NCBI RefSeq assembly: GCF_001469215.1
Contig: NZ_LOFH01000003.1
Span: 310,001 to 374,000, forward strand
Direction: 5' to 3'
DNA length: 64,000 bases
Source of the DNA: Pseudoalteromonas sp. H105
GTDB taxonomy: Bacteria > Pseudomonadota > Gammaproteobacteria > Enterobacterales > Alteromonadaceae
This document shows positions 37,873 to 62,048 of the stretch, in pieces; positions within the stretch are counted from its first letter, which is position 1; each line of letters begins with the position of its first letter. Both the position numbers and the translations under genes were made by a program. The notes beneath the pieces are model-generated. The model saw nothing but the letters and a program-made list of their open reading frames with translations, ran no database searches and had not been told where the DNA came from.

Positions 37873-37886
37873 GATTTATATAACAG

Positions 37887-43304: not shown

Positions 43305-46300
43305 TTATTTATTTTTTTTATTTGAGAAAGAAAGCCACCCAGGTTTCTGGTTTCGGTTTAGCTTACCAAGAATTTCAATCGCTTTTTCCAGCGTTATACG
43401 GTTATTGGCAATATCTTTATAAACACGAGTTGCAATTTTTTTACGTTTCACTGCAGCGCCCGCCTCAAGGAAGGACTCAGCGACTTGAGTAGCGAACCGT
43501 TTAATTGCACTTTTTTGTTTTCTGACTGATTGGTCATTCTTTGTGTGCGCGCGTTTACTTAAGCGCTCAGTAATATGCTGAAGTTCAGCCTGGCTATACT
43601 CATTTTGTGCGTGATGGGCTTTTTTGATCTGACTAATTGCATTATTTAAATAGGTGGCTTCAAGTTCTGAAAATTGATTAATGAGTGACAGACGCGTTAA
43701 CGCTTGCCTAAATTGATCCGTTGAGCAGCTTTCATCAAGTAATGTTGCAATATTGTCGTAAATGCGTTGCCATTGCTGCCAGCTATAAACGTAACCGAGG
43801 CCTGTCCCTTTAATGTTCTGCATCCCTACAATAACTTGATGGCAATTGGGCCTAGCATATGTCGATAATTCAACAGTCAATTCGTCGGCAGTAATGTGAG
43901 AGTCATCTATGAGTACACATTTACTTTGTGCAAGGCTGAGCAATGCCTGTTTTAATTGGTGCTGACTCTTTTCAATGTTTTCTAATAAAGGCTGGATTGT
44001 GTGATAGCAAAGATAATGCTCAAATACATCTTTTAAGCTTGCTTTGCGCTCTGAGTTCAAGTCAAAACCGTGTTCTTTAAACCATGTATCTAATAGGGTT
44101 TGGTTGGTTACTCCTGCAAGATCATCTGCTGTTAAAGTCGATTGTAATGCACTATTAAATAACGCAATAAGTGAATCTAAGTGTTTAATACAATGCAGTT
44201 GAGTGCATATAGACTCTAGTTCTTGGCAATCGTTATTTTTTATTACACGCTCTAAACGCGCAGTCAATGCTTGAATATAGTAACTATAAAAACCATCTAC
44301 GTTTGTGCCTATCACGACCATTTTATCAAATGGTAAATCGTTAGCGAGAATTTCGGCAAACACTTTAGAGCGAGCAACACGGTCATTGCGATTATTTATA
44401 AGGGCTATGGTTTGTTTTGTTGGGTCGTTTGATAATTCAAATAAGTTCAAACGTTTCCAATTTTCAAGTGTCGCTAAACGTTCATTGGCAGACATACTAT
44501 TAACAAAAGACATACTGAAATCATTAAATGGTGTTGCTGTAAAATGCTGTAATACACCGATGTCAGGGACGATACGTTCAGATGTTTCCTTAAATACAAA
44601 GTCTTTATCTAAGCCAATATGTGCCGCCATTTTGCACACTAATGCAATATTGTCAGGGTGCTCTTCGTAAGGATAAAGTGCTTTAATATCAGGGGTTATT
44701 TGATAACCATCCCCCCAATGTACTTGGACAAGGGTACTTTTCTTTGTCGTTGCATCTTTTTCAAGTATGGGCATCATCGTTTGCTCACTGGTAAATACCA
44801 GATTATTTGGTGCAATAAAGTTAGCCATTTCTTTAGCAACATCGATACCTGTAGGCCCTAAAATGTCTTCGTGGTCAGGGTATGCATTGGTAATAGTCGA
44901 AAAATTATCTTGCATCCATTGGCGTAAAATTCTCACGTATCGTGGTGTTAATCCCATGCATTCCCATAAAAAAACATCGGCTTTTACATTTTTAGCAAAA
45001 TGTAAAATATCGCTTTGCTCCCAAATACTCGCTTTATCAAAAGGCCGAAATATAGGCACTTCAAATTGTTCGCCATTTGAACGCGCAAAAATCATAGTGG
45101 CTTCACAACCCGTTGTTTTAGTGATAACTTTAAGTGCTAAGCCGCTAAAAAGAGCTGCTTTGAGTCTTTCAGTGCCTGACTTGCCTCGTGTTCCCCAACC
45201 TCCGATGCTAACGGGTATTGCTTTACGATCTCTTTTTATACGTTGACTAACGCGAGCATGGCGCCCCCAAAAATACAAGATAAAGCCCACAACAAAGAAT
45301 ATTAGCTGGCCAATACTATTTTGATAAATAGAATATAAATATTCTTTAAAGCTAATCCATACATTTACAAGTAATGGGGAAACGCTTAACTTTTTATAAA
45401 AGCGGCTTATGCCTTCTTCAACTACAAAGTGACAACCAAGTTGTTCACCATACGCCTTAAACTCGAATTTGAAGCCATTTCTCTCGAGCGTCGTTAAGTA
45501 GTTTTTCTGTTCAATATCGTTACCTTTTCGCAAATTATCGAGTTGTTCAACGTTGAGTGACAACCAAATGTACGTCTTTAAGCGTCGAAAAATCGTTGTA
45601 GGAGGGGTCACGCATAAGATACCGTCAGGTGTGTATGTTTTAGCTGCTTGTTTAATATCGTCTTGACTTAAAACGGATAATAAAAAATCAGGTAAGGGAA
45701 GGTGTGGACGTGTTGAGTGCTCTTTATCATTAAATAGCGGCTCACCCGGAACTGCGGTTGTGCTTATTTCAGCAACCGTGCAGCTAGGAACGTGCATGAA
45801 TGCAGAGGGCTTTCGCGCTACACTGTGGTTAAAGCTTTGACGTTTATCAGTACTTGGGTTTCGCCATTCATGAACAAGCCGCCAAATGCGAAACGCGCTG
45901 TGATAACCATGACTAATGTGCCAATGATGTTTTTTATGACTAACATTATAGCCTTCATTTTGCTGCGCCTTACGGCTTAGTAAGCGCCCTAATAACTCTT
46001 CATCTAATGCCTTTTGGTCAATCATTGTTTTATCAGATTGCGGGAATGATTGTTCGAGAAAGGTCATCATATTTTGGTGTGAAAATGCAACCAGTTGTTC
46101 GCGCGTGCGTGTGATGTATCGACGAACAGCTAGACTTGGTTCTTGGTTTAGTTGATCATTTAAACACGTTATAAACTGTTTGAAGATTACGTCTGGCTCA
46201 GTTGTCTCAAGCTGTAGATTAAGCATTATTCTAGCACTGAGCTCTAAGGTTAAACGTTTAATGTGTATGCTGTGTTTGGACCTTAATAATGTTTTCCATA

Positions 46301-47417
46301 ACGTGAAGGCGAGGCCATCTGAAGTCATGCGTGCACTGCTTAATTGTTTTACTAACGTAAAACGGACTGAATCTTCAGTTTCGTGCTTGAGTCGCTCAGA
46401 GATCAGTTTTTGTAAAAATGGGAGATCAAAATACAGTGATTGTTCAACAACACTTTGCCTTACTCTTGGATAAGTGTGCCAAGCAAGCCGCTGCAGTAAA
46501 TCTTCACAATGCTTTGTTAAGTTTAATTGGCTGACTAATATTTTTGGTAGAGCGGCTAATATAAATAAACGTTGCCCATCTTTGAGCTGAAATTGATCTT
46601 GGTTTTTGATGATTTGTGCCATAAACGCACGAATGTAAGTGGGTCGTTGGTGAATCAAAATTTCTAAGATATCTAAGCGAGCTAAATGAGGCGTATTTGG
46701 TTGCTCTAGCGCTAAGACGAGTGTTTCCACTAAATTTGCACTCAGTTCATGTTCATCCACCGTGTTATGAATAAGTTGTACTTGATTGGCTAGCGCGCGA
46801 TATAACGCATTCTTTACATGCTCGCTTTTTGTTTGTGACAAAATATGGAGAAAAAAGCCTTCTAAACCGAGGGATTGCCATGCACTTGAAATATTTTTTT
46901 CATCGTTTAGTAGGTAGCGATTACTCAAATCGCCTAACTTACCAATTAAAAACTTTAACGTTTGTTCAATATCGGCAATGCTGTCTTGGTAACGGTTAAT
47001 GACCGCGCCTTCGTCAAACCAACGAGAGAATGCTTGTTTGTCTTGTTTTAGTTGCTCTGCGGTTGCGCCCAACTGTTTTGCGTAATCAAGAATATGGAAC
47101 TCCCGCTCAGCACGTATTTCAGCGTGATTAATCCGTTCAATAAATAACAGATAGCCAGCATCAAGTTGTTGAAGGCTTTGTTGCTTTTGCTCAACTTGGT
47201 GACGCAGAAATCCAATGGATTGGCGCAGTAACCAATCGTTCTCATTTTCTTGCTCAGGAATATTTTGTAGTAGCTCCCATTGTGCTAAATCATCAACAAG
47301 CTGGCGGTATTTTTGGCGATACAGATCGAGCCAAAAATTGGCAATATCAGCAAACAGCAAATGCTCTAAACGCTGCTTTAATTCTTGTTTGTTCATTTTT
47401 TTATTTACAGATGCCAT
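43305..47417 (-). CDS. PgsB/CapB-like amide ligase with long N-terminal helical extension
   Basis: A 1370-residue protein, the last gene of the operon. Residues about 702-718 form a single membrane helix followed by a Mur-ligase-type ATP-grasping region of the PgsB/CapB class: P-loop WGTRGKSGTERL (Lys746), ITKTTGCEATMI, WECMGLTPRY, TNAYPDHEDILGPTG, NNRNDRVARS and VGMQNIKGTG, each of which lines up with B. subtilis PgsB (393 residues). PgsB activates the terminal carboxyl of the growing chain by phosphorylation and joins the next amino acid. The first 700 residues are extra: helical, HEAT-like in part (about 245-360). Another 150 helical residues extend the C terminus. The gene begins one base after the upstream stop codon. 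Confidence 0.88.
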   Translation of the reverse strand: MASVNKKMNKQELKQRLEHLLFADIANFWLDLYRQKYRQLVDDLAQWELLQNIPEQENENDWLLRQSIGFLRHQVEQKQQSLQQLDAGYLLFIERINHAEIRAEREFHILDYAKQLGATAEQLKQDKQAFSRWFDEGAVINRYQDSIADIEQTLKFLIGKLGDLSNRYLLNDEKNISSAWQSLGLEGFFLHILSQTKSEHVKNALYRALANQVQLIHNTVDEHELSANLVETLVLALEQPNTPHLARLDILEILIHQRPTYIRAFMAQIIKNQDQFQLKDGQRLFILAALPKILVSQLNLTKHCEDLLQRLAWHTYPRVRQSVVEQSLYFDLPFLQKLISERLKHETEDSVRFTLVKQLSSARMTSDGLAFTLWKTLLRSKHSIHIKRLTLELSARIMLNLQLETTEPDVIFKQFITCLNDQLNQEPSLAVRRYITRTREQLVAFSHQNMMTFLEQSFPQSDKTMIDQKALDEELLGRLLSRKAQQNEGYNVSHKKHHWHISHGYHSAFRIWRLVHEWRNPSTDKRQSFNHSVARKPSAFMHVPSCTVAEISTTAVPGEPLFNDKEHSTRPHLPLPDFLLSVLSQDDIKQAAKTYTPDGILCVTPPTTIFRRLKTYIWLSLNVEQLDNLRKGNDIEQKNYLTTLERNGFKFEFKAYGEQLGCHFVVEEGISRFYKKLSVSPLLVNVWISFKEYLYSIYQNSIGQLIFFVVGFILYFWGRHARVSQRIKRDRKAIPVSIGGWGTRGKSGTERLKAALFSGLALKVITKTTGCEATMIFARSNGEQFEVPIFRPFDKASIWEQSDILHFAKNVKADVFLWECMGLTPRYVRILRQWMQDNFSTITNAYPDHEDILGPTGIDVAKEMANFIAPNNLVFTSEQTMMPILEKDATTKKSTLVQVHWGDGYQITPDIKALYPYEEHPDNIALVCKMAAHIGLDKDFVFKETSERIVPDIGVLQHFTATPFNDFSMSFVNSMSANERLATLENWKRLNLFELSNDPTKQTIALINNRNDRVARSKVFAEILANDLPFDKMVVIGTNVDGFYSYYIQALTARLERVIKNNDCQELESICTQLHCIKHLDSLIALFNSALQSTLTADDLAGVTNQTLLDTWFKEHGFDLNSERKASLKDVFEHYLCYHTIQPLLENIEKSQHQLKQALLSLAQSKCVLIDDSHITADELTVELSTYARPNCHQVIVGMQNIKGTGLGYVYSWQQWQRIYDNIATLLDESCSTDQFRQALTRLSLINQFSELEATYLNNAISQIKKAHHAQNEYSQAELQHITERLSKRAHTKNDQSVRKQKSAIKRFATQVAESFLEAGAAVKRKKIATRVYKDIANNRITLEKAIEILGKLNRNQKPGWLSFSNKKNK

Positions 47418-47418
47418 G

Positions 47419-50400
47419 CTAATTTTGCTCTAAAAAATGATTGAGTTGCAGTGACTCAAAGATGATTTCATCATGAGAGAAAACACTGAAACCAGTGTCA
47501 GCTATATTGCCGGTGGAGAACTCTAAGCTCACATTATGACCATTTCTAAACCAATCTTGATCCCAGCGTAATTTTATCCAGCCTTGCGAAAAGTGGCCTA
47601 AATGTACTTGCTTACGCCAACCTACACTGGTGATATATTGCCATGTGCTATTGGGCCTATCATCATCTGCAAACTTATAATAACTGGTAAAGCCTGCCTG
47701 AAAAATGTGACCACGGTAGTATTGATTCCATGAGGTTCCAAAGCGTAACAAGTCGAGGCTCGTCCAATCAGTGTTACTGGTGCTGCCTGCCAAAAAGTTA
47801 AGATAACTATCGACCCAAGGTTGGTATCGATACTGATATTCTCCTCGCCAACCATGAGGGTGATCTTCACGGTAAAAATTATAGATGTCTGAGTTTAAGC
47901 TCGAATCAAACAAAAAGTCATCGAGCGAGGCACTACTGTAGCTATAAAAAGGGCTCACTTGCCATTGATGGCGATGGCTTTGATCAAATCGCCAAATTTG
48001 ACCAATTTGTACGTAGGCATTTATGCCGTATTGACTCGATAGGGCCCCTTGACTGGACTGCCAAGATGTTTGCAATGCGCTGTCGATATACCATGGACTG
48101 TCATGATCTTGCCACGCGTGGTAGCCATCAATAGATAGTATGTCTGCGTCTTGCTCACTTATTGAATACGTTAAGTCGACGCGGTACCAGTTTTCATCAT
48201 CGACTAAACGAAATCGCGCGCCGAGGTCTAAACTATGGCGAGTAGGAATGTCTTCACTGGTTTCAAATATGCCACGGCGATTATACGCAATGAACGCTTG
48301 CCAGCTTAAATCTTCCGATTGAAACTTAGCGACTTCGCTCTGCATTGTTTGCACTTGCTCAGGCAACACATAGGTCAACGTATCCGTTTTAAGTTGAGGA
48401 AGTGGTTGGTAGCTTGAAATCTTATGGTTTGATTCATTTAGTTGCCACGTGTACAACCTGGCATATTTTAGTTTATCAGTGGTGACTTCAATTTTTCCTG
48501 CTGGGTGGAAAAAAGTACGTTCTATTCGTCGATCATACTCATGGTTGTTATTACCTTTAAGCATTTGCTCTAATTTTACTAATCTATCGGCAGGCAATTT
48601 AGCAATTAAATGTTTGTTAGGCAGTACGGTGTAAAAAAGTAACTTGTTAGGCAAGGGTAGGTCATACCAACGACCATTACGATATTCCTGTGCACTTAGT
48701 GTTATCACCTGTGATAAATACGGATTGAGCCAATGTAATGAAACGACACTATCAACCAATTCTGATTTGTTAAACCCAAATGCAGTGATTTTATCCGGCT
48801 CAACAGACCATGTTTTAGTGGTATCTTTTAAATTAATTGCAATATTGGCTACGTTGCCTTGCGATAATTCCGCATCGGAAAAGTGAAAGTTCAAGCGTAT
48901 TTGGTTTGAGCGAGTTTGCGATAAGTCAAGGTTTAGGCTGTGCAACGGGCGCAGCAGTAACCCATTTTTGAAGTCATGCCTGCTACTGCTGCGCGATAAC
49001 TGATCGCTCACACTCGTTTCGCTGAGAGAATCAACTGTCAGCAGTTGGGTACCAGCAAAATCAACGTATTCGTCAATGGGTGTCCATTGGCCATAACTTT
49101 GAACCCGAGACAGCAGCGACTCAAGGCGTTCAGGCAAGGTTATAGAGCCTAATTTAGCTAACACCTGTGTATATTCATTAATACCAAGGGTGTTGTCAGA
49201 TAACTTAAACAAGGCATTGTTCAATAACGTTTTTTCACTTATTGACTGGTCATACAGTAAATTAATAAATGGCTGTTGCCAGTAATGCGGTGTTGCCATA
49301 TCTTGATATGTAAAGTCATTTAATAAAGACGCTTGCACAACCTGTAGGCTTATATATACGGTGTTATCACTATGAAGCCGAACAGACTCACCAGGTTGTA
49401 AAGTGATTAAACTGTCACTGGCAATAGAAAGTAATTGGCTGCTGTCCGCGAGTGCTGTCGTTGAGTTTATATCTGAATAAATAGGCAGTATGTTTTGTTG
49501 TTGGTCTTTGGTGGCGAACACCCAGCTCATTTTATATTGACCATTTTGCACACTCTTACTGCGTGCCCGTATTGAGAATGTAATCGGTTGACTCGTAGCT
49601 GTTAATGTAATCCCTTGTTGGTTGTTTAGCATGTAAGCCTGAAATAAATCACTTGGGTTAACTAAGGTGTTGCTGCCTGCATGCGCTAAGGAATAAACAG
49701 CATAATGTTTATCTGCTTCAGTCCCTTCACGCCAATTTAAACGCGCATAGCTGCTTTTTAATTTTGGCTCTTTTGTTAAGTCATGGCTAAGCCACACTGC
49801 AAGAAGGTGTTTTTGCTGCTTAATCGCAAGCTCTATCATGAACTGTTGACAAGTGTTTAGTATTTTAGCTGCGTCAGCACACAAGCCGAGTAGTTTATAA
49901 TCCAGCTCTAGATTAGTGTATTTTTCTAAAAGTGCCTGAGCGGCATACTTTTTAAGCTCAGGAATTGGGGAGCTGTTATATAACCCTTCAAGGTAGCTTT
50001 TAGCCAGCACACGTCTACCTTGTTGCGATAATAGCTCGATACGCAGTTGCCATGCTTTCATTGCAATAGGAGAGGTCGCTGAATTTACTAATGATTTGAG
50101 TAATTGAAGTGATTTTAAAGGGTCGCTTTTTCTCAAGTCATGTGCTTTTGCATATTGATTATGCCAGTGGATTAGTTGCTGTTGTGTCTCTTTTACGTTT
50201 ATAGATTGCGGGTTGTACGGGACTAAACTATTGGTATACTCATTGCCTATTAAAGTAAGCTTATCGCTAAGAAGTTGGCTGATAACAGGGCTTTTTTTAA
50301 TTAGCTTACCAGGTTGCAAGTAAAGTAGTTCATTGTTTGGGAAGTCCAACAATTGTGAACTTTGCAATACATATTCTATAGGCTGTCGCTTTGGGTCCAG

Positions 50401-51720
50401 GTTTTGAATCGTTAATGAGCTTGAAGCTAAAGGTATCGCCAATTCAAACGCAGAAAAATTTTCGCTTTTTAATAGGCTTAAATGCCATTGTTGATTGCCA
50501 CTACTGACCAATATGTGTGTGTCAACGTGACTGCGCGCGTGTAATGTGATTGTTGACTTAACGCGTTGTTTGGTTTTAAGGTCAAAGTGATGAGGAAACG
50601 TCTTTAAAGAATGTATTTGAGCGTATTCCTCTGAAAGCACAGGGTAGCCAACATCATCAACGAGACGCATACCACTTAAGCTATCGAAATGTTCAAATCG
50701 GCTATTGAAAAAGACGTTTTTATGGGCCGCGGGAGTTAAGTAATGACTCGTTGAAATCGTCTTTAATAGATCTTGATAGCGCCGCTGGGTAAGCAAGTCA
50801 CCATTTTGATAAACGTTAGAGTCAATAATAGATAAGTCTTGATTCAGGAAAACCTGTTTGAGTGTTTCATTTAGGTTGTTGACCCAGTAGGGTTGGAAAT
50901 GCTTTTCCTGCTGTTTATCAAGGGCCTGATCGTCATATATTGCGCGATGGCTTTGCTCTATTTTAATATAGGCGTCTGTTTTGCTACTTAGCGTTAAATA
51001 TTCACCTTTGTCAATTGCGATATAGTCAGTATTGGCTAACCCGATGTGCTTTGATGGGTATTCACTTGCTCTACTTGCAAGCACACTAATAATTGCAGCT
51101 GGCTGCTCATTGATATAGGCGTATACTTTACCGTTGATATCTTTATTGAGTAAATCTTTTCGTACAGTTACCTTTAGCTTTCTAGCGTGCTGAAAATATA
51201 ACTTAATTTGCTCACCCGCTTTGAAGTGGTAATAATTTTCAACGTCTTGACCATATTTAAGCCGTGTCACTTGGCGTGGCAATTTCAAGGCACGACGAAA
51301 GCTGTCGCGGTGACGCAAGTTTTCACCGACCATCGCATTGAAGGTTTTACCTGTATCTAAATGATTCGTTATTTTTATTATGCGGTTGTATGGCTGACTC
51401 GTTAATTGACAGTGCGATTGCCGACAGATGAAATCACGATGTTGGTTTAATCTTTGTTGGGCAAGGTGGCTGCTACCCGCACTCAGAATAAAAATATTAA
51501 AGTGACTACTTTCAAGCTCAAGCCACTGTCCCTTAGGTAACCATAAATATTCGCTTTGCTTAGCTTTGATATAATTTGAATGCTTACTGCCTTCTAGTAA
51601 TAGCTTTGAATCAATACTCACCCATTTTGGAGAACTTAAAACGTTGTCGTTACTAGCAAAAGCGGATGAGTCAACTAAAGAAACAAAGCTGAGAAAAAAA
51701 ACAATCAGAGCGTAATACAT
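47419..51720 (-). CDS. Large outer-membrane helical-repeat plus beta-barrel protein, exporter candidate
   Basis: A 1433-residue secreted protein of unknown family. Signal peptide about 1-22 (SAFA|SN). The N-terminal 500 residues are beta-rich. Residues about 520-670 are helical with TPR-like spacing (SPIAMKAWQLRIELLSQQG, ELKKYAAQALLEKY). The last 270 residues (from about 1160) consist of alternating amphipathic strands rich in Trp and Tyr (YRVDLTYSISEQDADILS, HIFQAGFTSYYKFADDDRP), as in a 16-strand-class outer-membrane barrel. The layout, periplasmic repeats plus barrel, echoes BcsC, PgaA and AlgK/E. Placed between the hydrolase and pgsB-like genes, it is the best candidate for polymer export. 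Overlaps the hydrolase gene by 16 bp. Sequence similarity to known porins was not recognised. Confidence 0.72.
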   Translation of the reverse strand: MYYALIVFFLSFVSLVDSSAFASNDNVLSSPKWVSIDSKLLLEGSKHSNYIKAKQSEYLWLPKGQWLELESSHFNIFILSAGSSHLAQQRLNQHRDFICRQSHCQLTSQPYNRIIKITNHLDTGKTFNAMVGENLRHRDSFRRALKLPRQVTRLKYGQDVENYYHFKAGEQIKLYFQHARKLKVTVRKDLLNKDINGKVYAYINEQPAAIISVLASRASEYPSKHIGLANTDYIAIDKGEYLTLSSKTDAYIKIEQSHRAIYDDQALDKQQEKHFQPYWVNNLNETLKQVFLNQDLSIIDSNVYQNGDLLTQRRYQDLLKTISTSHYLTPAAHKNVFFNSRFEHFDSLSGMRLVDDVGYPVLSEEYAQIHSLKTFPHHFDLKTKQRVKSTITLHARSHVDTHILVSSGNQQWHLSLLKSENFSAFELAIPLASSSLTIQNLDPKRQPIEYVLQSSQLLDFPNNELLYLQPGKLIKKSPVISQLLSDKLTLIGNEYTNSLVPYNPQSINVKETQQQLIHWHNQYAKAHDLRKSDPLKSLQLLKSLVNSATSPIAMKAWQLRIELLSQQGRRVLAKSYLEGLYNSSPIPELKKYAAQALLEKYTNLELDYKLLGLCADAAKILNTCQQFMIELAIKQQKHLLAVWLSHDLTKEPKLKSSYARLNWREGTEADKHYAVYSLAHAGSNTLVNPSDLFQAYMLNNQQGITLTATSQPITFSIRARSKSVQNGQYKMSWVFATKDQQQNILPIYSDINSTTALADSSQLLSIASDSLITLQPGESVRLHSDNTVYISLQVVQASLLNDFTYQDMATPHYWQQPFINLLYDQSISEKTLLNNALFKLSDNTLGINEYTQVLAKLGSITLPERLESLLSRVQSYGQWTPIDEYVDFAGTQLLTVDSLSETSVSDQLSRSSSRHDFKNGLLLRPLHSLNLDLSQTRSNQIRLNFHFSDAELSQGNVANIAINLKDTTKTWSVEPDKITAFGFNKSELVDSVVSLHWLNPYLSQVITLSAQEYRNGRWYDLPLPNKLLFYTVLPNKHLIAKLPADRLVKLEQMLKGNNNHEYDRRIERTFFHPAGKIEVTTDKLKYARLYTWQLNESNHKISSYQPLPQLKTDTLTYVLPEQVQTMQSEVAKFQSEDLSWQAFIAYNRRGIFETSEDIPTRHSLDLGARFRLVDDENWYRVDLTYSISEQDADILSIDGYHAWQDHDSPWYIDSALQTSWQSSQGALSSQYGINAYVQIGQIWRFDQSHRHQWQVSPFYSYSSASLDDFLFDSSLNSDIYNFYREDHPHGWRGEYQYRYQPWVDSYLNFLAGSTSNTDWTSLDLLRFGTSWNQYYRGHIFQAGFTSYYKFADDDRPNSTWQYITSVGWRKQVHLGHFSQGWIKLRWDQDWFRNGHNVSLEFSTGNIADTGFSVFSHDEIIFESLQLNHFLEQN

Positions 51721-52472
51721 TTTTTAAATCCACTCATTAAGTTAGGCTGTTGAATAAGGTTTTTACGTAAGGCATAGCTAAGTTCAATGTGAAAAAACTC
51801 ATTTTTTGGTAGTTCAATGCTATTTAAAATATTTTTAGTGCCCCCCAACTCGGATACTTCCAACGGGTAAATGGCACTCTTGAGTTTTAAGTTATTAATT
51901 AAACAATGGCTTATCTTTTTTACTTGTGTTGAGGGTGGCCGTGCGCCCTGACTGATAATTACATCAAGTGATTGGGCTTGTTTAGTGCGACGCTTCTTAG
52001 CATTAAAACCATGAATTTGGTAAATACGAGTCGCCGGCACAGTATTGGCATATGCTTCAATAAATGCATTTGCAACACTGTAGCGCGATTTACCTAAGTC
52101 GGCTTTTTGACCCTGCTTATTTAGCGTATTTCGGTGTTTTGTATTGGCTATAAATACTTGGCATTGCGCAGATAAAGATTCGGCAATGTCGAAAGTATGC
52201 TTATCAAAAAAACGATGAGGTGCATAAATAATACATGGCTTCTCATGCATGCTATAGCGTATGAGGGCGCCAGAGATTAATTCATTTTTATCATCAAGGG
52301 TTATCTCTGCGTTGAGGTGATAATTTAATTGCATGATTTTTTGATTCGTTAGCCATTGGCTAAACTGTTGTTTCAGCATGGCATAATTATCGGTAACGCT
52401 AGGCTCTGCTGCATTTAAAGTAAAGCTCAAAAGGAAGCTTAAAAGTAGGGTTGGTCTAAAGAGCCTCATCAT
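51705..52472 (-). CDS. Secreted zinc amidohydrolase-like protein (N-formylglutamate amidohydrolase / PGA hydrolase-like)
   Basis: A 255-residue protein with a signal peptide (about 1-21, LNA|AE). The mature part shows the arrangement of metal-dependent amidohydrolases acting on N-acyl-glutamate or poly-gamma-glutamate: an APHRFFDKHT segment with His86 and Asp90, ANTKHR with His113, QIHGF with His154 and HIELSYALR with Glu230. I infer a Zn peptidase that trims or releases the polymer in the periplasm, the role that PgsS/CapD/PgdS play in Bacillus. The exact family is not certain. Related degenerate segments occur twice in the PgsC-like protein. Overlaps both neighbouring genes by about 16 bp. 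Confidence 0.62.
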   Translation of the reverse strand: MMRLFRPTLLLSFLLSFTLNAAEPSVTDNYAMLKQQFSQWLTNQKIMQLNYHLNAEITLDDKNELISGALIRYSMHEKPCIIYAPHRFFDKHTFDIAESLSAQCQVFIANTKHRNTLNKQGQKADLGKSRYSVANAFIEAYANTVPATRIYQIHGFNAKKRRTKQAQSLDVIISQGARPPSTQVKKISHCLINNLKLKSAIYPLEVSELGGTKNILNSIELPKNEFFHIELSYALRKNLIQQPNLMSGFKKCITL

Positions 52473-54726
52473 TCCACCACCTTATTTTTTGTTCTTCACT
52501 TGGATACTCTTCGAGTATGGCAATCCAAATCGTTTTATCACTGCTCAGCTTTATATTATTAATAGCCTTTATATCACTGGTAATTTGGTTTGTGATAGCA
52601 GGGTAAGCATATAACGTGCTGTCTTTTGGGTGTATAAGAAATGCATCAATTAAAGGACTAGGTAATAAACGTAAACGCTTGTTTTCAATACTGTACTCAT
52701 TTGTTAAACCGCGGTGATAGCGAGCATTCTGTGAGATATTAAGTATGATAGGCTGGTCTATTTTTGAGCTATAAGCCTTCACAACAACACTTTTTAGGCG
52801 TAGTGATGGGAATTCCAATGTGAGTGTGTTGTTGGCGACTAACTTATACACACGCTGTTTAACCCATGGCCTTTGGCCTTGCCAATTTTGGTAAATAGCT
52901 TTAGCCGTGTCTTCGATATGCGCTAACTTTTTATAATCAGTGTCTTTTAAATCAATATCTTGGGCACTGTTGTTATTCTCTTGATACACAATGTTTGCGG
53001 CAGCATTATCGGGAGTGTGTGCTGATATTTGTAGTAACTGCCGTGGTTGCACTTTTGCAAAGTTAAAAGGGGTTGGCTCAGTTAGAGGTGTAAAATACGT
53101 GTTAGGACTCTTTACCAATGCGACATTAGAAATTGGTAAAAGAGAGAACAATTCTTTTGATTGATAAAAGGTGTCTTCAATAATTACTTCAGGTGGTTCT
53201 GCAAAGACACGAATATTAATGTAAGCGTCGTTCTCCGTGAAGCTATAATGGTTATCTGCTTGTTGCTCATACCAAGCAGCGATATCGTAAAAGTCAGGGG
53301 TTTCTTTGCAAACGGTATGACACACAGAACGTTGGTAATTAAAACCACTATTACGTGACTTTACATTTATTAGAGCAGGTTGATTTGAAAAAACTTCAAG
53401 GCTGGCCGCTTTTTCACCAACACGTAAAAATAACGCTTTGGCTTTTTTAGTTAGTTGGCGCTGTGTTGTATCAAGAATGATTCGGTCAAAATGTGATGTT
53501 TCACCGTCATAAAATACGTTGAACCTATCTATTTCTACTTTGTTTATATCATACACCACGACTATCGCTTGGCTGTTTCGGGGGGCCCGCAATTCAATAT
53601 TAATATCACTGTTCGCTTCAAGGGTGAAGCGAGCGTTAATCGTTTCGCTGATTTTATAAAAACCATCTTGCGATGTGAGGAGTGGCTGCATTGATTTAAA
53701 TGACCAGTTAGTCAATGTACTTTGATCGCTACAAATAGTCACTAAGCCTGGGAGTAGAGGTTCGGTAATGAACTGTGTTGTTTGCTCATACTCTCCAAAG
53801 CTAACCGTTTTTGGTGCTACAAATTGACGTAAATCGTACCAAACTAGACTGATATTTGCCGTGTTGTTTTGCGTGAAAATTAAACTATCTGGTTGTTCTA
53901 TTTTTATGCTTGCGCAAAGGTGTTGATCGGTATAATAGTCATCTAAATTTAGTTGCTGTTGGCTAAAATCATACGTTACAACATTGTAAGGCAGAGTCTC
54001 GTACAAAATATCTGATTTAAAATCAATACTTGGTATTCCTTGTGGCGCAAGCTTTAACCACTTAAACGCAACTGCATTAGTGATCTCTGACTCTGATAAA
54101 GCATTAACACCAAGACTTAAGTAATTTGTCGCCCGTTCGCGGCGTTCCAAAGGCAGTTTTAACCAAGCGCTATCTTTATCTTGGGCATCATTGATGGTTT
54201 TTGCATGCACTCTGACAACAACGCCTTTTATGTTCGGATCCTCTGGGGTTAATTTTAGGGAAACTGCAAAAACACCCTCAAGTTGTTTTGGGCTAATATA
54301 AAATGATTGCCCAGAGGAAACGAGTAAAGCCTTACGTTGTTCGATAATTTGTTTTATTTGCAGTTCGTCATTGGCTGGCGTTAACTTCGTTGCGTGGTGG
54401 TAAATGTTGGTTTTAATTGGTTTGTTTTGCTCATCAAGCAATGAGTACTCAATTGCATAATTGATAGGTGTATCGAGATTGAGTTGTTGTTCGAAAATGG
54501 CATTGGAAAGCACGCGAATAGCACGGGTACGTGATGGTGAGTATGCGTAAATCAAGGGTTTACTCGTTGATAACCATTGTACATTAGAACGAGTTTCATC
54601 CTCGGAGCGAGCTGTTATAGGCTCTGCAGAATTCAACCAAAGATAAAAGCTAAACAGTGGAAAGCCAGTTGCAATTAGCAAAGCTATTAAAACAATAAGT
54701 TTAAAAAAGCGCTTAATAAATTGCAT
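52456..54726 (-). CDS. Unknown single-helix periplasmic protein of the polyamide operon
   Basis: A 756-residue protein with one N-terminal helix (about 9-31), then 720 residues expected in the periplasm. I do not recognise the family. The chain is beta-rich, with repeated short strands around RAPRNSQAIVVVYD and LFLRVGEKAASLEVFSNQ, and a Cys pair (CHTVCKE) near residue 485 that could form a disulfide. Its position between the PgsC-like and hydrolase genes, with overlaps of 14 and 17 bp, argues for a subunit of the synthesis or transport machine, perhaps a bridge from the inner-membrane complex to the outer-membrane protein. That is inference from place and topology only. AAGG precedes the ATG. 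Confidence 0.68.
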   Translation of the reverse strand: MQFIKRFFKLIVLIALLIATGFPLFSFYLWLNSAEPITARSEDETRSNVQWLSTSKPLIYAYSPSRTRAIRVLSNAIFEQQLNLDTPINYAIEYSLLDEQNKPIKTNIYHHATKLTPANDELQIKQIIEQRKALLVSSGQSFYISPKQLEGVFAVSLKLTPEDPNIKGVVVRVHAKTINDAQDKDSAWLKLPLERRERATNYLSLGVNALSESEITNAVAFKWLKLAPQGIPSIDFKSDILYETLPYNVVTYDFSQQQLNLDDYYTDQHLCASIKIEQPDSLIFTQNNTANISLVWYDLRQFVAPKTVSFGEYEQTTQFITEPLLPGLVTICSDQSTLTNWSFKSMQPLLTSQDGFYKISETINARFTLEANSDINIELRAPRNSQAIVVVYDINKVEIDRFNVFYDGETSHFDRIILDTTQRQLTKKAKALFLRVGEKAASLEVFSNQPALINVKSRNSGFNYQRSVCHTVCKETPDFYDIAAWYEQQADNHYSFTENDAYINIRVFAEPPEVIIEDTFYQSKELFSLLPISNVALVKSPNTYFTPLTEPTPFNFAKVQPRQLLQISAHTPDNAAANIVYQENNNSAQDIDLKDTDYKKLAHIEDTAKAIYQNWQGQRPWVKQRVYKLVANNTLTLEFPSLRLKSVVVKAYSSKIDQPIILNISQNARYHRGLTNEYSIENKRLRLLPSPLIDAFLIHPKDSTLYAYPAITNQITSDIKAINNIKLSSDKTIWIAILEEYPSEEQKIRWWNDEAL

Positions 54727-57700
54727 AAGAGCCTTCCATCATCATAGTGTTAAAACGTAATTGATCTGTTAACTGATTCGTAATCGGGTTAAAAATAGCC
54801 AGTAACTTGGCATTTAATTGGATAGCTAAGGCATACTCTTGTTGGTCTTCAAACTCTATAGTTTGCAAAGTACAGTTATCAAAAGGTTCACATAGTTGTG
54901 CCAGTACAGTTAAGCGTTGTGAACTGGCATATTGTTGCAATACATCATTAAAATGTAGTGCGTGAGTAGGGAGCAAAACGGCCCAGTCATTCGGTGATAG
55001 TGTGCTGATATTTATTGTTTTTACATCGGGTTGAACAGATATAGCAAGCAAACGTTGCAATAAACTTTGCTGATTAACAGAAAACTGTTGTTTAAAATCA
55101 GATGCTAACCAGAGTGTTGCAAGTTCACTTTGTGACGTAAATACTTGATAACCAGATTGTGGCGAAGTACCTAGTTCTAGCCCCCTCGTGGCGGTTTGAC
55201 CTTGCACTGTTTGATAATTCACAGACAACGTGCTTAAACCACTATCAAGTGCATCTATAAGCGGTTTATGATTATTGCCTGCTTGAGTATATTGAAATGC
55301 CAATGCAGTGGGTCTGATCCATGATGGGGCACTGTGACTACGAATTTGTAAATTAAGAACATTCTGATCCATTGCAACCCGGAGGTAGCTTTGATGAACA
55401 ACATTAAAAAGTGCATCAACATTATTTGGCGCTAACACATTCGATTGCGGATGCGCATACGGATGAGCACCGGCAATCATAAGTTGTTCAGCTTTACTGG
55501 CAATAAATAACTCAGTCGCAAACTTAAGAGTATTGCTTTCAAATAACGGCCGAGGTACTTGAATATTTAATCGCTCACTGTTATTGAGACTTAAAACATA
55601 AATCCCTTGCCCATGGCTAAGTGCAGAGCTTTCTAAACTTGGCGCGACCAATAAAAAACGACCTTGGCTATTACGCACCAAGCTTAATTGATAGCCCATT
55701 AATCTGGCCGTTGTATTAACTTGGTTGAGTAAATTGACAATATCGTCATCAACCGTTTTTTCACTTAAGCTTGCTTTTAACCTGTACAGAGGACGTAAAA
55801 TCTCAAACTCCCATAATGCGGCTTGATTAGGTGATAATGTTTTATAGTGGCCACTGCCTTTTGCCGTAATATAACCTGAATAGAAATTAACTAATTCGTT
55901 TAAAGGTCTATTTACAAAGTCAATTTCGTTTTTCTGTTCACCTTGATTGTTACGAGCAATATTAGCCAATAAAGTGGTGTAGTTTTTACGATTTAGAAAA
56001 GCCTCAAACAACTGACCTTCAAAATTACTATCGGGCAAAGAGCTTTTCGTAGCTAAACCAAAAAATGTTTCCTGGTAACCGAGTAGTTGCTGGACTAATC
56101 GTTGGGTCAATTCGCTAGGTAACTGGTTATAAATCCAATATTGGCTTGACGCACCTAGAGTGGTTTTTGCTAGTAAACGGCTGGTGCGATTGTTTACCTC
56201 ACGTACTTGAAATATTTGTTCAAGTTCCATGGCCTCAATAAATGCATAATAGTAATCGCTTTGTTGATTATTTTGAGAAAGCTTTGCACTGGGCGTCAAG
56301 CTAGTACCAAAGACCATAGCGTGAGCTGAAAAGTATTTAAAAATATGGCCTGCAGAATCACTCGCAAGGCTTTCCGATGTTGGATAAGGCACTGTGACTA
56401 TAAATTTTGCTTTAGGTTGACGGGCAATAACAAATAAACCGCGTTGAGAGGTCTTTCTCGCATCACGTATATAAATAAACTGTTCATCAAATTGAAGCTG
56501 GAAATCTAGTTGAGCCAAACGTGGTTGAATATGTTTGATGTATTCTAAATTGTCGGGTGATTTATTAATGTCATAAATTGCACGTTTAAAATTATTTATG
56601 TCTTGGTTTACTTGGTAACTACTGAGTTCTATCGTGCTTTTATTGTCAGTATATAAATAGCTTTTATATTCACTGATTTGTTGACTTAAGGAGCTCGTTT
56701 TTTGAATTGGGCTCACACTGTTAACACCCGTTTCTATAAATAATGAAGGGATAAACATAATAAAAAAACCAATGGCTATCGCAAGTGAGCCACCGACAAT
56801 AGAGGTTTGAAACGTCGCTCTGATCACCAGACCTAACGCACTTTTTTGGTAAATTTTTAAAGCTAACAAAGTAGATAACATATAACCAAAGGCAAAGGTG
56901 TCAGTTACTTTTATCTCAGGGTAATAATGAACGACAAAATAGTTTAAAAAAAGCTTATAAATGAAACCAATATTAAAGAAAAACAATAATAGCCTAGCAC
57001 CTTCAATATTGGCATTCTTTAACCTCGTATAGTGCAGCAATGATGCCCCAATAATTAATATAATGGCCGTTTCAGCAAAAGAGGTAAGTAATTTGGTTGG
57101 TTGCATTAGCTGTAAAGCCAGTAATGCTGGCAGCATGATGCCATTAAACTCCCAGCCGTATTTTATATTCGCCCGAGATGCAAAAAAGGCCGTTATTACC
57201 AGAATAATATACGCTTTCGGTGCAGCAATAATTGAGGCCGCAACCGCCTCATACATGATTGCAAGATTAGCGATACTAAAATTGGTCATTGGCATAAGCG
57301 CATAGCGCACTAGTAAATAGGTGATCGCGAGCTGAATAATGGTCACTTTCATGCCGTATTTAAAGCCGCCGTTCCACATAACGTTTGCGGTTAACGCGAT
57401 AATAACTAAGCCAAGAGAATATAGCTGCGAAGAGTAATCAAAGGTAATATCCCAACCGCTCAGAATATTGGCAATTAATGGCCAAAAGAGGGTATCCATG
57501 ATTACTCGCACTAAAATACTTATTAAGATAATAGCGAAGAAGCGGTCTCGACCGAACATTTCGGCATAACCGAACTTCTCCATAATGTATTTTGCACTAA
57601 AGCGCATTAAGCCGTAAACAACGATAGACTCAATAATGATAACGACTGCTGAAGTTGGGCTTACAATAAGCAGTGGTACAAGATAACCTGGGACAACTAA

Positions 57701-57829
57701 ACCCGTTAAAGGAAAACCAAAGCGTAAGTTGAGTAAACAAACAACGGTTATACCAATCCACACAGTAGTAATAACCGATTGACCAAGGCCACCTCCAGAT
57801 GGAAATAATTGTAAAATCAAATCGCCCAA
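54713..57829 (-). CDS. PgsC/CapC-like membrane protein, duplicated, with a long soluble tail
   Basis: A 1038-residue protein. The membrane part holds two PgsC-like units. Unit 1 (about 18-178) has the signature GFPLTGLVVPGYL and the RDRFFAIILISILV segment matching the RRKFAAMLITG region of B. subtilis PgsC (149 residues). Unit 2 (about 203-360) repeats the pattern with FNGIMLPALLALQLMQP and EGARLLLFFFNIGF. The soluble tail (about 380-1038) contains two segments (about 440-545 and 705-835) resembling the secreted hydrolase of the operon but without its histidines. PgsC is the membrane partner of PgsB. TTG start (57829), seven bases after the sensor gene stop, with GGAG in the overlap. Side of the membrane for the tail is uncertain. 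Confidence 0.85.
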   Translation of the reverse strand: MGDLILQLFPSGGGLGQSVITTVWIGITVVCLLNLRFGFPLTGLVVPGYLVPLLIVSPTSAVVIIIESIVVYGLMRFSAKYIMEKFGYAEMFGRDRFFAIILISILVRVIMDTLFWPLIANILSGWDITFDYSSQLYSLGLVIIALTANVMWNGGFKYGMKVTIIQLAITYLLVRYALMPMTNFSIANLAIMYEAVAASIIAAPKAYIILVITAFFASRANIKYGWEFNGIMLPALLALQLMQPTKLLTSFAETAIILIIGASLLHYTRLKNANIEGARLLLFFFNIGFIYKLFLNYFVVHYYPEIKVTDTFAFGYMLSTLLALKIYQKSALGLVIRATFQTSIVGGSLAIAIGFFIMFIPSLFIETGVNSVSPIQKTSSLSQQISEYKSYLYTDNKSTIELSSYQVNQDINNFKRAIYDINKSPDNLEYIKHIQPRLAQLDFQLQFDEQFIYIRDARKTSQRGLFVIARQPKAKFIVTVPYPTSESLASDSAGHIFKYFSAHAMVFGTSLTPSAKLSQNNQQSDYYYAFIEAMELEQIFQVREVNNRTSRLLAKTTLGASSQYWIYNQLPSELTQRLVQQLLGYQETFFGLATKSSLPDSNFEGQLFEAFLNRKNYTTLLANIARNNQGEQKNEIDFVNRPLNELVNFYSGYITAKGSGHYKTLSPNQAALWEFEILRPLYRLKASLSEKTVDDDIVNLLNQVNTTARLMGYQLSLVRNSQGRFLLVAPSLESSALSHGQGIYVLSLNNSERLNIQVPRPLFESNTLKFATELFIASKAEQLMIAGAHPYAHPQSNVLAPNNVDALFNVVHQSYLRVAMDQNVLNLQIRSHSAPSWIRPTALAFQYTQAGNNHKPLIDALDSGLSTLSVNYQTVQGQTATRGLELGTSPQSGYQVFTSQSELATLWLASDFKQQFSVNQQSLLQRLLAISVQPDVKTINISTLSPNDWAVLLPTHALHFNDVLQQYASSQRLTVLAQLCEPFDNCTLQTIEFEDQQEYALAIQLNAKLLAIFNPITNQLTDQLRFNTMMMEGSYAIY

Positions 57830-57836
57830 GGTTATT

Positions 57837-59801
57837 TTACTCCATTAAATCTTTTGTTAATGGTTGCTGTTCATTAAGGAAATCACATAATTGTTTGCTA
57901 GGCATTTTCCCTATTAATAAAGCGATATCTATAAATTCAAATAATATACCAGATACTTGGAATGGCTCCCCTGATGCGCTTTGTATACTGGCTGAGTCCA
58001 CGGCTCTTACATTAAGAACATAAACTTGAGTATCAAGCTTGGCCTCAAGGTAAATCTCTCCTTTTTGTAGTGTGATGTAGCGTAACTTTCCTTTTGCAGT
58101 TTCAATGTCAAGGTTAGTTATTTGGCAAAGTAAATCTAATGCTGTCATATCAAAGATTGAAAATTGATGATGTGAGGCTAATTCTTCTAATGCCTTATTT
58201 ATTTGTACGACTTGTCCAAATAAATTAAAGAGCACAGTTGCAGAGCGAATATGGTTAAATACATGCTCCAACGTTGTTAACTTTTGCTCCATTTCAGTAA
58301 TCGATGTTTTTACTTTTTGGCTTAAAGGCTCTTGAAGCGTCATCGTCAGAAATCGCGATAAGCTACTATTATTAGCAATCGTTTGTGATTCATATATTCG
58401 ATGATGAAAGAGTAATTCACCGACTTGACCTGCAAAGGCATTTACATTTTTCTCAAAGGCTTGTTGATTAAAACGCTCATCAGGGGTAATTGTCATTGCC
58501 CAAAAGCCGCGTACATCGCCTGCGTAAGTTAAGGGTACTATGTACTGGATTTCGCCTTCATCTAGCCCTTCAAAAAATGGCCTTTCTATGACGATTACGT
58601 TAAATGCTTTTAATGCATCAGAGTAAGGAGGGCGTTTGTAATCACGTCGCATCTCTTGTATATCAGAGAGTTGGCAGTTTATAGCTCTGATTTCTGTCAG
58701 TCGATGGTCGCCTTCCTTACGGGCTAGAAAAATTGATTTATTCAGTGCCAATTGTTGATTAATTAAACGGGTGATTGAGTCCCAAGGTGAACTTTGTGAT
58801 GTAAATGATTGGGGTAAATACCGGCCAATCATTTTTTGTTGTATGTCACCAATCAGATTTACAAGCTCATATTCTTCATTTAGCTTTCTGATAATAATAA
58901 CCCAGAGCAGGGTGTAAAATGTTAATATAATCATTTGGCCCACAGGAAGATAAATCTGCTGCGAAATTAACATTAAATAACTTAACCCAAACCAAGTAAC
59001 ACTAAGTGAAGTAGCTAAAATTAGGCTGTAGATACTTGATAGCTTTTGAAAAGCAAATAACAGAGCGATTGACAGTAATAGAAATAACAATGTGCTTTGC
59101 CATTTATTAACAATGAATATTGCCTGTTCTTTTTGCAGTGTGTCTGCGATATAGGCCACTAGTAAAAGGTAATTCGTGCTTTGTGATAGCTTAGGTGCAT
59201 TGAGTGAAACCCCTAATCCTGCATTCTTTTGTCCTAAAATTATTATTCTATTCTGCAATTGGCTGGCCATAATATCCATCGCCATCAAACGTGCAGCTGA
59301 AAACTTAGGTAATGCAGCTGGGGACAATTCAAAATTAATTAATGCAGCGGTATCATCACTCTCAAATAGCATTGGCCAAATAGAATTACAGCGATGCTTA
59401 TCTGAGTATTTAAGTTCAATATTATATCCCGCCCAATCATTTAAAGAGGGCAGGCAGTAGTCATTATTAGGGTGCGGATAAAAAACAGTCTCTTGATTAT
59501 CTTTTATTACGTTGGTATTTAATTGTAGCCGCTCATTTGAAACAACAATAATATGACTTGGCTCATATGTTTGTAACTGTTTAATTAAATCAGTGTGCTC
59601 GCGACTTAGATGCTCGCTTTCAATGAGCACGACCTCACTTTGCTGGCTCTGTGTTAAATGCGCAAGTTGGCTATAAAACAAAGCATTCACAGAGTGAAAA
59701 AGCGATATTGAGTTAGCAACAATAATGGTGCTAAACAACGCTAATATTAACCAGAAGTTTTTTTGACGCTGCAAAAGAGTTAGTTGGTGCTTTAAAGCCA
59801 C
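57837..59801 (-). CDS. CHASE2-type membrane sensor without output domain
   Basis: A 654-residue protein. A short cytoplasmic start and helix (about 15-34) lead to a periplasmic CHASE2-like domain (about 45-230, with the family-like NRIIILGQKNAGLGVSL region), then three helices (about 236-304) typical of CHASE2 proteins. The cytoplasmic part has a GAF-like domain (about 340-480) and a PAS-like domain (about 500-630) but no kinase, cyclase or GGDEF domain, so it would signal through protein contact, perhaps controlling the synthase. GTG start with GGAT eight bases upstream. It lies second in the operon, 21 bp after the pgsA-like gene. Domain calls are from hydropathy and pattern, not from a profile search. 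Confidence 0.7.
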   Translation of the reverse strand: MALKHQLTLLQRQKNFWLILALFSTIIVANSISLFHSVNALFYSQLAHLTQSQQSEVVLIESEHLSREHTDLIKQLQTYEPSHIIVVSNERLQLNTNVIKDNQETVFYPHPNNDYCLPSLNDWAGYNIELKYSDKHRCNSIWPMLFESDDTAALINFELSPAALPKFSAARLMAMDIMASQLQNRIIILGQKNAGLGVSLNAPKLSQSTNYLLLVAYIADTLQKEQAIFIVNKWQSTLLFLLLSIALLFAFQKLSSIYSLILATSLSVTWFGLSYLMLISQQIYLPVGQMIILTFYTLLWVIIIRKLNEEYELVNLIGDIQQKMIGRYLPQSFTSQSSPWDSITRLINQQLALNKSIFLARKEGDHRLTEIRAINCQLSDIQEMRRDYKRPPYSDALKAFNVIVIERPFFEGLDEGEIQYIVPLTYAGDVRGFWAMTITPDERFNQQAFEKNVNAFAGQVGELLFHHRIYESQTIANNSSLSRFLTMTLQEPLSQKVKTSITEMEQKLTTLEHVFNHIRSATVLFNLFGQVVQINKALEELASHHQFSIFDMTALDLLCQITNLDIETAKGKLRYITLQKGEIYLEAKLDTQVYVLNVRAVDSASIQSASGEPFQVSGILFEFIDIALLIGKMPSKQLCDFLNEQQPLTKDLME

Positions 59802-59822
59802 AGAAGATCCAATGAAAGTACG

Positions 59823-62048
59823 TTAGTTAAAAGTGCTAAATGTAAGCTTGTATGTTACAGATGTAGCGGAGTCGGCATACAAAAAATCAAACCCATGCAT
59901 TTTTTCTGTTTGCCAAACGCCCTCATCAATCACGAGTTTATCTTGCCAAAGTACGACTGCAATATCATCTAATGCTAAACTGGCTTCATCGTTGCTGGGA
60001 GGAAAATGTCTAAAGGTTACTTTCACCCCGCGTGCTGGCAGATTTTCTGGACCCAATGTAGTTGTGTCTGGGGGTAACGTAAAATTGTATTTAAATGCTT
60101 GCCATGAGTATGTTCCTGCTTGCGCGATATCGCTATACTCTGTAGAGAACTCTAACGCATCTTCTGCAGTAGTCGTGACTAACTTTAGCTCTAATCTACC
60201 TGCGTTTTCGCCTTTAATATAACCAATTAAACTAAAGTCTTTAAATGATTGTGGTTGGTCATTCTCGTCGTAAAAATCTATTGTGCGTACCGTTTGTCTG
60301 AACGGAATGATTGAAGGCGTATTATCAAACTGCGTTCGTGATGAGCACAATGCTTGAAGGCCGCTTCGTACATTACTTATACAGGGTGTGACGCTTTCAC
60401 CGGTGTGATCCCATCTCGCAACTTCAAGTTGGTCATCATCATTATCCCAATCTTCAAAGTCGCCAAATATCATCATGTCACGGCCGAACTTAATAGATGT
60501 AGGGGTTTCGCCTTCTATTATTTCTATTTTAGATAAAAATGCAGCTGTTGAAGGTGCATAATTGCGTAAATCAATCAGGCTTTGATCTGCGCTTAGCGTT
60601 ATTGTTTTTGTGTGCTGGGTCACTTGCATTTGGTTTTTACTAAAATATAAATCAGCATAGCCATCTCTAGGGATTAAAGTGATGTTATCGTCCGAAAGGC
60701 TTGCGAGTCGGCGGATTAAATAGTTACTTAAAAATCCATGTGTGAATTTAGGTTGATACCCTTCTACATAAACAGGATAAACTACCCCACGTTTTGTCGG
60801 GGTACTACTGTCTGTGTCAACCTTAACCATCACGGCAACACCCAATAAGGTTTCCAATCGGTCTTGATCAAACATAAAGTTACCAAGGCCTAAAATAGCA
60901 GGTACACCATCATACATTGCAAAGCCTTGAGCAACGTGCGGGTGGTGTGCGATCAAAAGATTAACGCCGTATTTAGCAATTGTTTCAAATCGACTTTCAA
61001 TATAAGGGGTAGGAGAGTAAGAATACTCATCGCCGCCATGCATTTGTACAATTGAGAAATCGCTGTTGGTTATCGTATCTTTAACCGCATTAATCACTAA
61101 TGGTGTATTGGTTAAATCAGCAGCCCCTCCTTTCGTTTCGCTGGAAACATAGTTTATTTCATGTTCATCACCGGGGATTGATGTAGCTGAAAATAGACCC
61201 AATGTTATCGTACCAACATCAAGTAATTTTGGCGCATAAGATTCTTGATTATTTTTACCAGCACCACTGTGAGCAAACCCTGCGTTATTGACTTCAATGA
61301 TTGTGTCATCGAGTCCGTCTTCTAAAAAGTCATAGACGTGATTATTGCCAAGGGCTACATAGTCAATTCCAATACTAGTTAGGCCTTCCAGCGTTTCTGG
61401 TAACGAGAAGAAAGCAAACTCTTTGGTTGGGTGCACTGTTTGTGGTGTGCCAGTAACAGGACTTTCTAAATTAACCGATGCAAAGTCAGCGGCTAAAAAT
61501 AACGGTGCCACATATTGAGATAGCTTTTTAGCATCTTCACTTGCGCTAGAAGGTCTAATTAACGCTTCATCAATATTTGGAATATCAGCTGACATTGTCG
61601 TGAGAGAAGGGTCGAGGTAACGACGCCCAAACATAGTGTCTCCAGCAAAGAGTAGCTCTACTTCATTTGTTTTTTTGCTTAGGAGTTTGATTACTTTTGA
61701 ATTGGAAGTGTTATTTATACTCAGTGTTTCAATATGTGGTAAGTAATTAGCGGCATTTATATCTAACCGATAATTCCCAAACGGCATATCATTAAATGAG
61801 ATGTTACCCGCATTGTCACTTGTATATATAGTCCCATTTAATTTTACGGAAACATTACTAGCAACTTCATTATTTTCATTCAAAATAGTGACAGTGGCGG
61901 AGTTCGTGCTTTGAAAGTATTGCTCGCGTAGTTGAGTTTCAGTCTGTTGGCTTTGAGTTTCACCCGTCTCGTAAGGGTCTTCAACCTTACATGCGCTGAT
62001 ATAAAAAATGAAAAAAATAGGGAGAATTAAAGTTCGTATTGTGTGCAA
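59823..62048 (-). CDS. CapA/PgsA-like polyamide synthesis lipoprotein with extra N- and C-terminal domains
   Basis: A 741-residue lipoprotein (lipobox YISAC, Cys20). A carboxypeptidase-regulatory/CnaB-like beta domain (about 50-130; GNISFNDMPFGNYRLDINA) precedes the CapA/PgsA domain (about 133-480), a calcineurin-like fold with LLFAGDTMFGRRY, VNLESPVTG, VALGNNHVYDF, MHGGDEY, HHPHVAQGF and LGLGNFMFDQD. The C-terminal 200 residues look like a jelly-roll carbohydrate-binding domain. In Bacillus CapA/PgsA is needed for export or capsule retention. TTG start with AAAGAGA upstream. First gene of the operon and divergent from tyrR across 266 bp. Confidence 0.87.
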   Translation of the reverse strand: MHTIRTLILPIFFIFYISACKVEDPYETGETQSQQTETQLREQYFQSTNSATVTILNENNEVASNVSVKLNGTIYTSDNAGNISFNDMPFGNYRLDINAANYLPHIETLSINNTSNSKVIKLLSKKTNEVELLFAGDTMFGRRYLDPSLTTMSADIPNIDEALIRPSSASEDAKKLSQYVAPLFLAADFASVNLESPVTGTPQTVHPTKEFAFFSLPETLEGLTSIGIDYVALGNNHVYDFLEDGLDDTIIEVNNAGFAHSGAGKNNQESYAPKLLDVGTITLGLFSATSIPGDEHEINYVSSETKGGAADLTNTPLVINAVKDTITNSDFSIVQMHGGDEYSYSPTPYIESRFETIAKYGVNLLIAHHPHVAQGFAMYDGVPAILGLGNFMFDQDRLETLLGVAVMVKVDTDSSTPTKRGVVYPVYVEGYQPKFTHGFLSNYLIRRLASLSDDNITLIPRDGYADLYFSKNQMQVTQHTKTITLSADQSLIDLRNYAPSTAAFLSKIEIIEGETPTSIKFGRDMMIFGDFEDWDNDDDQLEVARWDHTGESVTPCISNVRSGLQALCSSRTQFDNTPSIIPFRQTVRTIDFYDENDQPQSFKDFSLIGYIKGENAGRLELKLVTTTAEDALEFSTEYSDIAQAGTYSWQAFKYNFTLPPDTTTLGPENLPARGVKVTFRHFPPSNDEASLALDDIAVVLWQDKLVIDEGVWQTEKMHGFDFLYADSATSVTYKLTFSTFN

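Follow-up and report, generated by a model that had tools for sequence, protein, structure and literature searches.

A widespread gene unit of diderm bacteria couples PgsB- and PgsC-type subunits to a predicted hydrolase and a candidate outer-membrane exporter

In the Bcs (cellulose), Alg (alginate), Pga (poly-N-acetylglucosamine), and Pel systems, one operon encodes an inner-membrane synthase (a glycosyltransferase), a periplasmic hydrolase, and a helical-repeat scaffold with an outer-membrane barrel. The repeats are fused ahead of the barrel in BcsC, PgaA, and PelB, and the barrel has 16 strands in BcsC and PgaA and 18 in AlgE. Poly-gamma-glutamate (PGA) systems (PgsBCA/CapBCA of Bacillus, with a related capBCA in Francisella) comprise a CapB-type ATP-dependent ligase, a CapC membrane subunit, and a CapA-type PGA_cap protein. 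In the available passages of the cited papers, CapA/PgsA is an accessory component of the CapsuleFinder model and PGA capsules are reported in most phyla (PMC5542703), and what Francisella capBCA does or makes is described as unclear (PMC2897883). The open-licence passages that we found hold no description of polyglutamate passage across the Gram-negative outer membrane. Here we analyze a window of 64,000 nucleotides from Pseudoalteromonas sp. H105 (contig NZ_LOFH01000003.1, positions 310,001 to 374,000), in which a first-pass annotation had proposed a seven-gene operon for a PGA-like polymer adapted to a Gram-negative envelope. The genes encode CapA, a CHASE2 sensor, CapC, a protein with one membrane helix (oneTM), a secreted hydrolase, a helical-repeat/barrel protein (OMP, a candidate outer-membrane protein), and CapB. 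We consider it likely that the unit makes a gamma-linked polyglutamate-like polyamide and exports it across both membranes, in a manner analogous to Bcs, Alg, Pga, and Pel. The open-licence literature that we searched by term yielded no earlier description of this gene set.

We searched genome contigs with CapC alone and retained the top 80 among 249 relatives. The resulting loci, many of them from metagenome bins, belong to Pseudoalteromonas, Pseudidiomarina, Thiodiazotropha, Legionella, Lysobacter, Zhongshania, Methylococcaceae, Desulfobacter, Sulfurovum, Mariprofundus, and others, and the unit occurs in Pseudomonadota, Campylobacterota, and Desulfobacterota. Downstream order was scored where at least 9 kb of downstream sequence was available (70 loci), and CHASE2 where at least 2 kb was available upstream (73 loci). 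The order CapC-oneTM-hydrolase-OMP-CapB was intact in 69 of the 70 loci, including 22 of the 23 outside Pseudoalteromonas, and CHASE2 preceded CapC in all 73. The sole exception (L105, Desulfobacteraceae) lacks an OMP in the stretch examined, and a CapB lies upstream of its CHASE2. The genes are thus kept together in other genomes, and the tight packing described in the first-pass annotation holds, but the number of genes has to be revised. Of 47 Pseudoalteromonas loci, 42 carry CapA with the unit, and CapA is absent from all 20 other loci that extend far enough upstream; because it is a Pseudoalteromonas addition, the conserved core consists of six genes, CHASE2-CapC-oneTM-hydrolase-OMP-CapB. 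Unrelated bacteria show this order at protein identities of about 30%, and the arrangement is therefore far beyond chance. Pairwise correlations between the distance matrices of the six proteins (27 loci) ranged from 0.68 to 0.97, as expected of genes inherited together.

Two genome samples, both small, gave results of the same kind. All seven PgsB-type matches in a phylum sample (398 genomes) lay in long open frames of 1109–1431 aa. In an order sample (248 genomes), the OMP profile matched only five genomes, all five with CapB; the PgsB profile matched 94, strongly (E <1e-60) in seven. The remaining PgsB matches were weak (E >1e-8) and were presumed, as a group and not one by one, to be other ligases, of the Mur/FolC kind. 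A CapC search of plasmids gave no match. The system is widespread and not particular to this Pseudoalteromonas genome.

Profile searches bore out the assignment of the synthase subunits, both of which are present in an enlarged form. CapB matched TIGR04012 (PgsB) with an E value of 5.7e-63, and its P-loop, GTRGKS, is invariant in seven homologues. CapC matched PF14102 in two stretches (E 2.2e-30, 105.9 bits against a cut-off of 27) and TIGR04011 (PgsC) with an E value of 3.7e-14. The two halves of its membrane region align with each other (hhalign E 5e-5, probability 67%), and the membrane half probably arose when the CapC domain was duplicated in tandem. The CapA/PgsA-type protein, likewise as annotated, matched PF09587 (PGA_cap) with an E value of 8e-50, and a lipobox, ISAC, can be seen by eye near its N terminus.

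The secreted hydrolase had no Pfam match, PF05908 (Gamma_PGA_hydro) included, and no PF05908 match was found elsewhere in the genome. Its structure model (pLDDT 84.7) nevertheless had poly-gamma-glutamate hydrolases as its top two Foldseek matches (21dc, 8.0e-6; 5onj, 9.7e-6), with aspartoacylase, carboxypeptidase, and amidohydrolase relatives further down. In VIA, the model scored Z values of 14.1 with 2odf, 12.7 with an N-formylglutamate amidohydrolase, 12.3 with PghP, 12.1 with YndL, and 11.9 with the PM1 enzyme. Three of the five best rows were poly-gamma-glutamate hydrolases; 21dc, 5onj, and 3a9l lay between 11.9 and 12.3. Four residues (H86, D90, H154, and E230) do not vary among 24 homologues and form a putative active site, in which they may include zinc ligands. 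The motifs PH..D, HG, and ELS..R line up with those of PghP homologues from phages. A strict version of the motif was present in 67 of 73 cases; five of the other six read with intact ligand positions, and one is cut by a contig end. The hydrolase thus shares with PghP of Bacillus phages and bacterial homologues such as YndL a predicted fold and the PH..[DE], HG, and ELS..R motifs, but it differs in falling below PF05908 detection, in carrying a conserved cysteine pair, and in being kept throughout the cluster, next to the synthase genes. These comparisons agree with the secreted hydrolase of the first-pass annotation and add to it a predicted poly-gamma-glutamate-hydrolase fold. One relative (L142, genome G006) has a 440-aa open frame with a hydrolase homologue (7e-18); CapB, CapC, and OMP were not found in it.

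The hydrolase domain recurs, in degenerate form, within CapC. A hydrolase profile free of CapC sequences matched 86 proteins longer than 900 aa, and those listed were CapC. Two copies in the periplasmic half of CapC aligned with the hydrolase with hhalign probabilities of 98.2% and 98.0%, and with each other at 99.6%. Among 52 sequences, the histidine of the PH motif is replaced in copy 1, mostly by A or Y, and is an arginine in copy 2 (R760) in 48; the histidine of the HG motif is an arginine in copy 1 (R543) in 47 and in copy 2 (R830) in all 52. On this alignment, the periplasmic half of CapC comprises two hydrolase domains in which the putative zinc histidines are replaced, mostly by arginine. 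The copies look like binding domains rather than enzymes, and they may bind the polymer.

We modeled aa 480–1433 of OMP (pLDDT 87.2). The model contains helical repeats (helices at model residues 2–181), beta domains, and 14 long strands, which is consistent with the annotated helical-repeat plus barrel protein and predicts an outer-membrane barrel behind the repeats. In VIA, the barrel scored Z values of 17.7–19.4 to OmpG/CymA, 15.2 to PelB, 14.7 to BcsC, and 13.9 to 4y25 (PgaA), a polysaccharide outer-membrane secretin. The net charge of the assigned lumen face is positive or zero in all 38 OMP sequences. In two unrelated lineages, Legionella yabuuchiae (L100, 16495-21842) and a Methylococcaceae metagenome bin (L108, 16567-22100), OMP is split into two overlapping genes, one for the periplasmic part and one for the barrel, and a signal-like segment can be seen by eye near the N terminus of both products. 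This split form resembles the pair AlgK and AlgE.

The CHASE2 match of the sensor is weak here (E 0.003) and clear in orthologues. In several other lineages the protein is part of a sensor kinase, which the first-pass annotation had not anticipated: distant complete orthologues mostly measure 846–1106 aa, and of three that we scanned, the two long ones have an HATPase region and one of these a receiver domain. Several loci also encode a distinct receiver-like protein between CHASE2 and CapC. The kinase part appears to have been lost in Pseudoalteromonas, because all 47 orthologues there are only 630–683 aa long. A second CHASE2-type gene is found upstream of the unit in three loci (L085, L092, and L095).

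No Pfam or NCBIfam family was found for the one-helix protein or OMP, and no Pfam family was consistent among 25 homologues of the former or 38 barrel-region homologues of the latter. Profiles of CapB, the one-helix protein, the hydrolase, and the barrel protein gave no significant match to the sequences of solved structures.

All seven minus-strand open reading frames of the annotation were found in place (Table 1). The junctions from CapA to CapB are a gap of 21, a gap of 7, overlaps of 14, 17, and 16, and a gap of 1 bp. Translation of CapB probably starts 21 bp further in, because homologues begin at that position, which would leave a 22-bp gap to the OMP gene. Promoter and terminator scans gave signals no more frequent than in shuffled sequence. 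A cellulose (bcs) operon adjoins the unit at 27295-41571; BcsQ, A, B, Z, and C (27295-37872) were recognized by reading translations, and BcsE (38208-39827) and BcsG (39997-41571) by Pfam. A secreted DUF642 protein (41702-42916) comes after CapB, as do homologues in two other loci (L031 and L033).

Table 1. Features of the unit, with positions in the window
Feature	Position	Strand	Remarks
CapA/PgsA-like lipoprotein	59823-62048	minus	741 aa; PGA_cap domain aa 132-395
CHASE2 membrane sensor	57837-59801	minus	654 aa; without kinase region of distant orthologues
CapC/PgsC-type membrane subunit, enlarged	54713-57829	minus	1038 aa; PF14102, TIGR04011
CapC membrane half, aa 1-385	56675-57829	minus	probable tandem duplication of CapC domain
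CapC periplasmic half, aa 385-1038	54716-56677	minus	two degenerate hydrolase-domain copies
One-helix protein (one N-terminal membrane helix, ~720-aa predicted periplasmic part)	52456-54726	minus	756 aa
Secreted poly-gamma-glutamate-hydrolase-like zinc amidohydrolase (predicted)	51705-52472	minus	255 aa
Exported helical-repeat/barrel protein (OMP), candidate outer-membrane exporter	47419-51720	minus	1433 aa
OMP alpha-helical repeat region, aa 481-660	49741-50280	minus	structure model; precedes beta domains and barrel
OMP predicted 14-strand outer-membrane barrel, aa 1139-1404	47509-48306	minus	structure model; most blocks pLDDT >90
CapB/PgsB-type amide ligase with ~700-aa N-terminal extension	43305-47417	minus	1370 aa
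PgsB ligase domain of CapB, aa 725-1054	44256-45245	minus	TIGR04012; P-loop GGWGTRGKSGTERL

The unit shares with PgsBCA/CapBCA the CapB-type ATP-dependent ligase and the CapC membrane subunit and, in Pseudoalteromonas only, the CapA-type PGA_cap protein. It differs in the N-terminal extension of CapB, in the duplicated membrane domain and two pseudo-hydrolase domains of CapC, and in four further core proteins, including the predicted outer-membrane barrel. With Bcs, Alg, Pga, and Pel it shares the layout of an inner-membrane synthase and a predicted helical-repeat scaffold with a barrel in one operon, together with a candidate for the periplasmic hydrolase. Here, however, the synthase is an amide ligase rather than a glycosyltransferase, the hydrolase is, by fold and motifs, a PghP-like amidohydrolase, and the barrel is predicted to have 14 strands; no sequence similarity to these systems was detected. 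Because its synthase subunits are of the PgsB/PgsC type, the unit would work like these systems without being a member of them.

Our proposal draws on what computation shows: which genes the unit contains and the order in which they are kept, the folds predicted for their domains, the duplication of domains, and how well the putative active site is conserved. CapB would extend the chain at the inner membrane, acting as an ATP-dependent amide ligase with glutamate as the probable monomer, and the membrane domains of CapC would carry it through the inner membrane. In the periplasm, the CapC pseudo-hydrolase domains, with arginines in place of zinc histidines, and the one-helix protein may hold or guide the acidic chain, and the PghP-like zinc hydrolase may trim, release, or clear it, as BcsZ does for cellulose or AlgL for alginate. 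The helical-repeat/barrel protein would dock the complex and supply the outer-membrane pore through which the chain leaves. CHASE2 would sense an envelope signal, its output passing probably through kinase and receiver in several other lineages and probably through direct contact in Pseudoalteromonas. We infer the identity of the polymer, its passage through CapC and the barrel, and the parts played by CHASE2, the hydrolase, the one-helix protein, and the other periplasmic components.

Several observations weigh against this proposal. CapB scored 212.9 bits against the TIGR04012 equivalog cut-off of 222.7, and CapC, at 53.2 bits, fell well below the TIGR04011 cut-off of 96.45. The extension of CapB precedes its single hydrophobic segment, which complicates the topology. 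By sequence, the hydrolase resembles PghP weakly (profile E 0.0065, hhalign probability 5.8%), and so the case for homology to PghP comes from the motifs and the modeled fold; moreover, the fold also serves other substrates, such as N-formylglutamate and peptidoglycan. The positive charge of the OMP lumen is no more than modest (on average 16 basic versus 11 acidic residues, without a control set). The subunit scores and the use of the fold on N-formylglutamate and related amides would also suit a machine of the same kind with another monomer, a polyamide of a different amino acid or a mixed gamma-glutamyl polymer, with a hydrolase matched to that bond. We consider this unlikely, given the ligase profile and P-loop of the PgsB type and the poly-gamma-glutamate hydrolases among the best structural matches; the hydrolase fold lends a polyglutamate product indirect support.

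The remaining alternatives concern the fate of the product. The polymer might be made while the barrel protein serves as an anchor, display, or assembly scaffold rather than a pore, as the small size of the barrel (14 strands, OmpG-like) and its low sequence conservation (mean 24%) could suggest; yet helical repeats ahead of a barrel are the layout of known exporters, OMP is almost always in the unit, and the split form yields two separate proteins, and we regard this reading as distinctly improbable. The hydrolase fold, which peptidoglycan amidases share, and the large periplasmic domains of CapC might instead point to a ligase and CapC that make no free polymer but add short polyglutamyl chains to a protein, lipid, or peptidoglycan acceptor in the periplasm or outer membrane. 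Such short modifications would seem not to need a dedicated barrel or a separate hydrolase, and we give the idea very little weight. That the product is an intracellular storage compound, the category in which CapB and CapC of Thiodiazotropha symbionts are placed in the available passages of one study (PMC11168628), is scarcely credible for a unit that includes a predicted outer-membrane barrel and in which four of the six core proteins carry an export signal or a large part predicted to be periplasmic.

We therefore retain export of a gamma-linked polyglutamate-like polyamide as the likely function. Evenly poised, in our view, is the broader proposal that such units form a separate, widespread class of diderm trans-envelope polyamide secretion, in which the arginine-bearing pseudo-hydrolase domains of CapC would grip the acidic chain and pass it to the helical-repeat/barrel exporter. 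If the proposed function is correct, diderm bacteria would have a complete polyamide set that parallels the cellulose and alginate systems, and its genes, predicted folds, and testable residues would be at hand in culturable marine bacteria.

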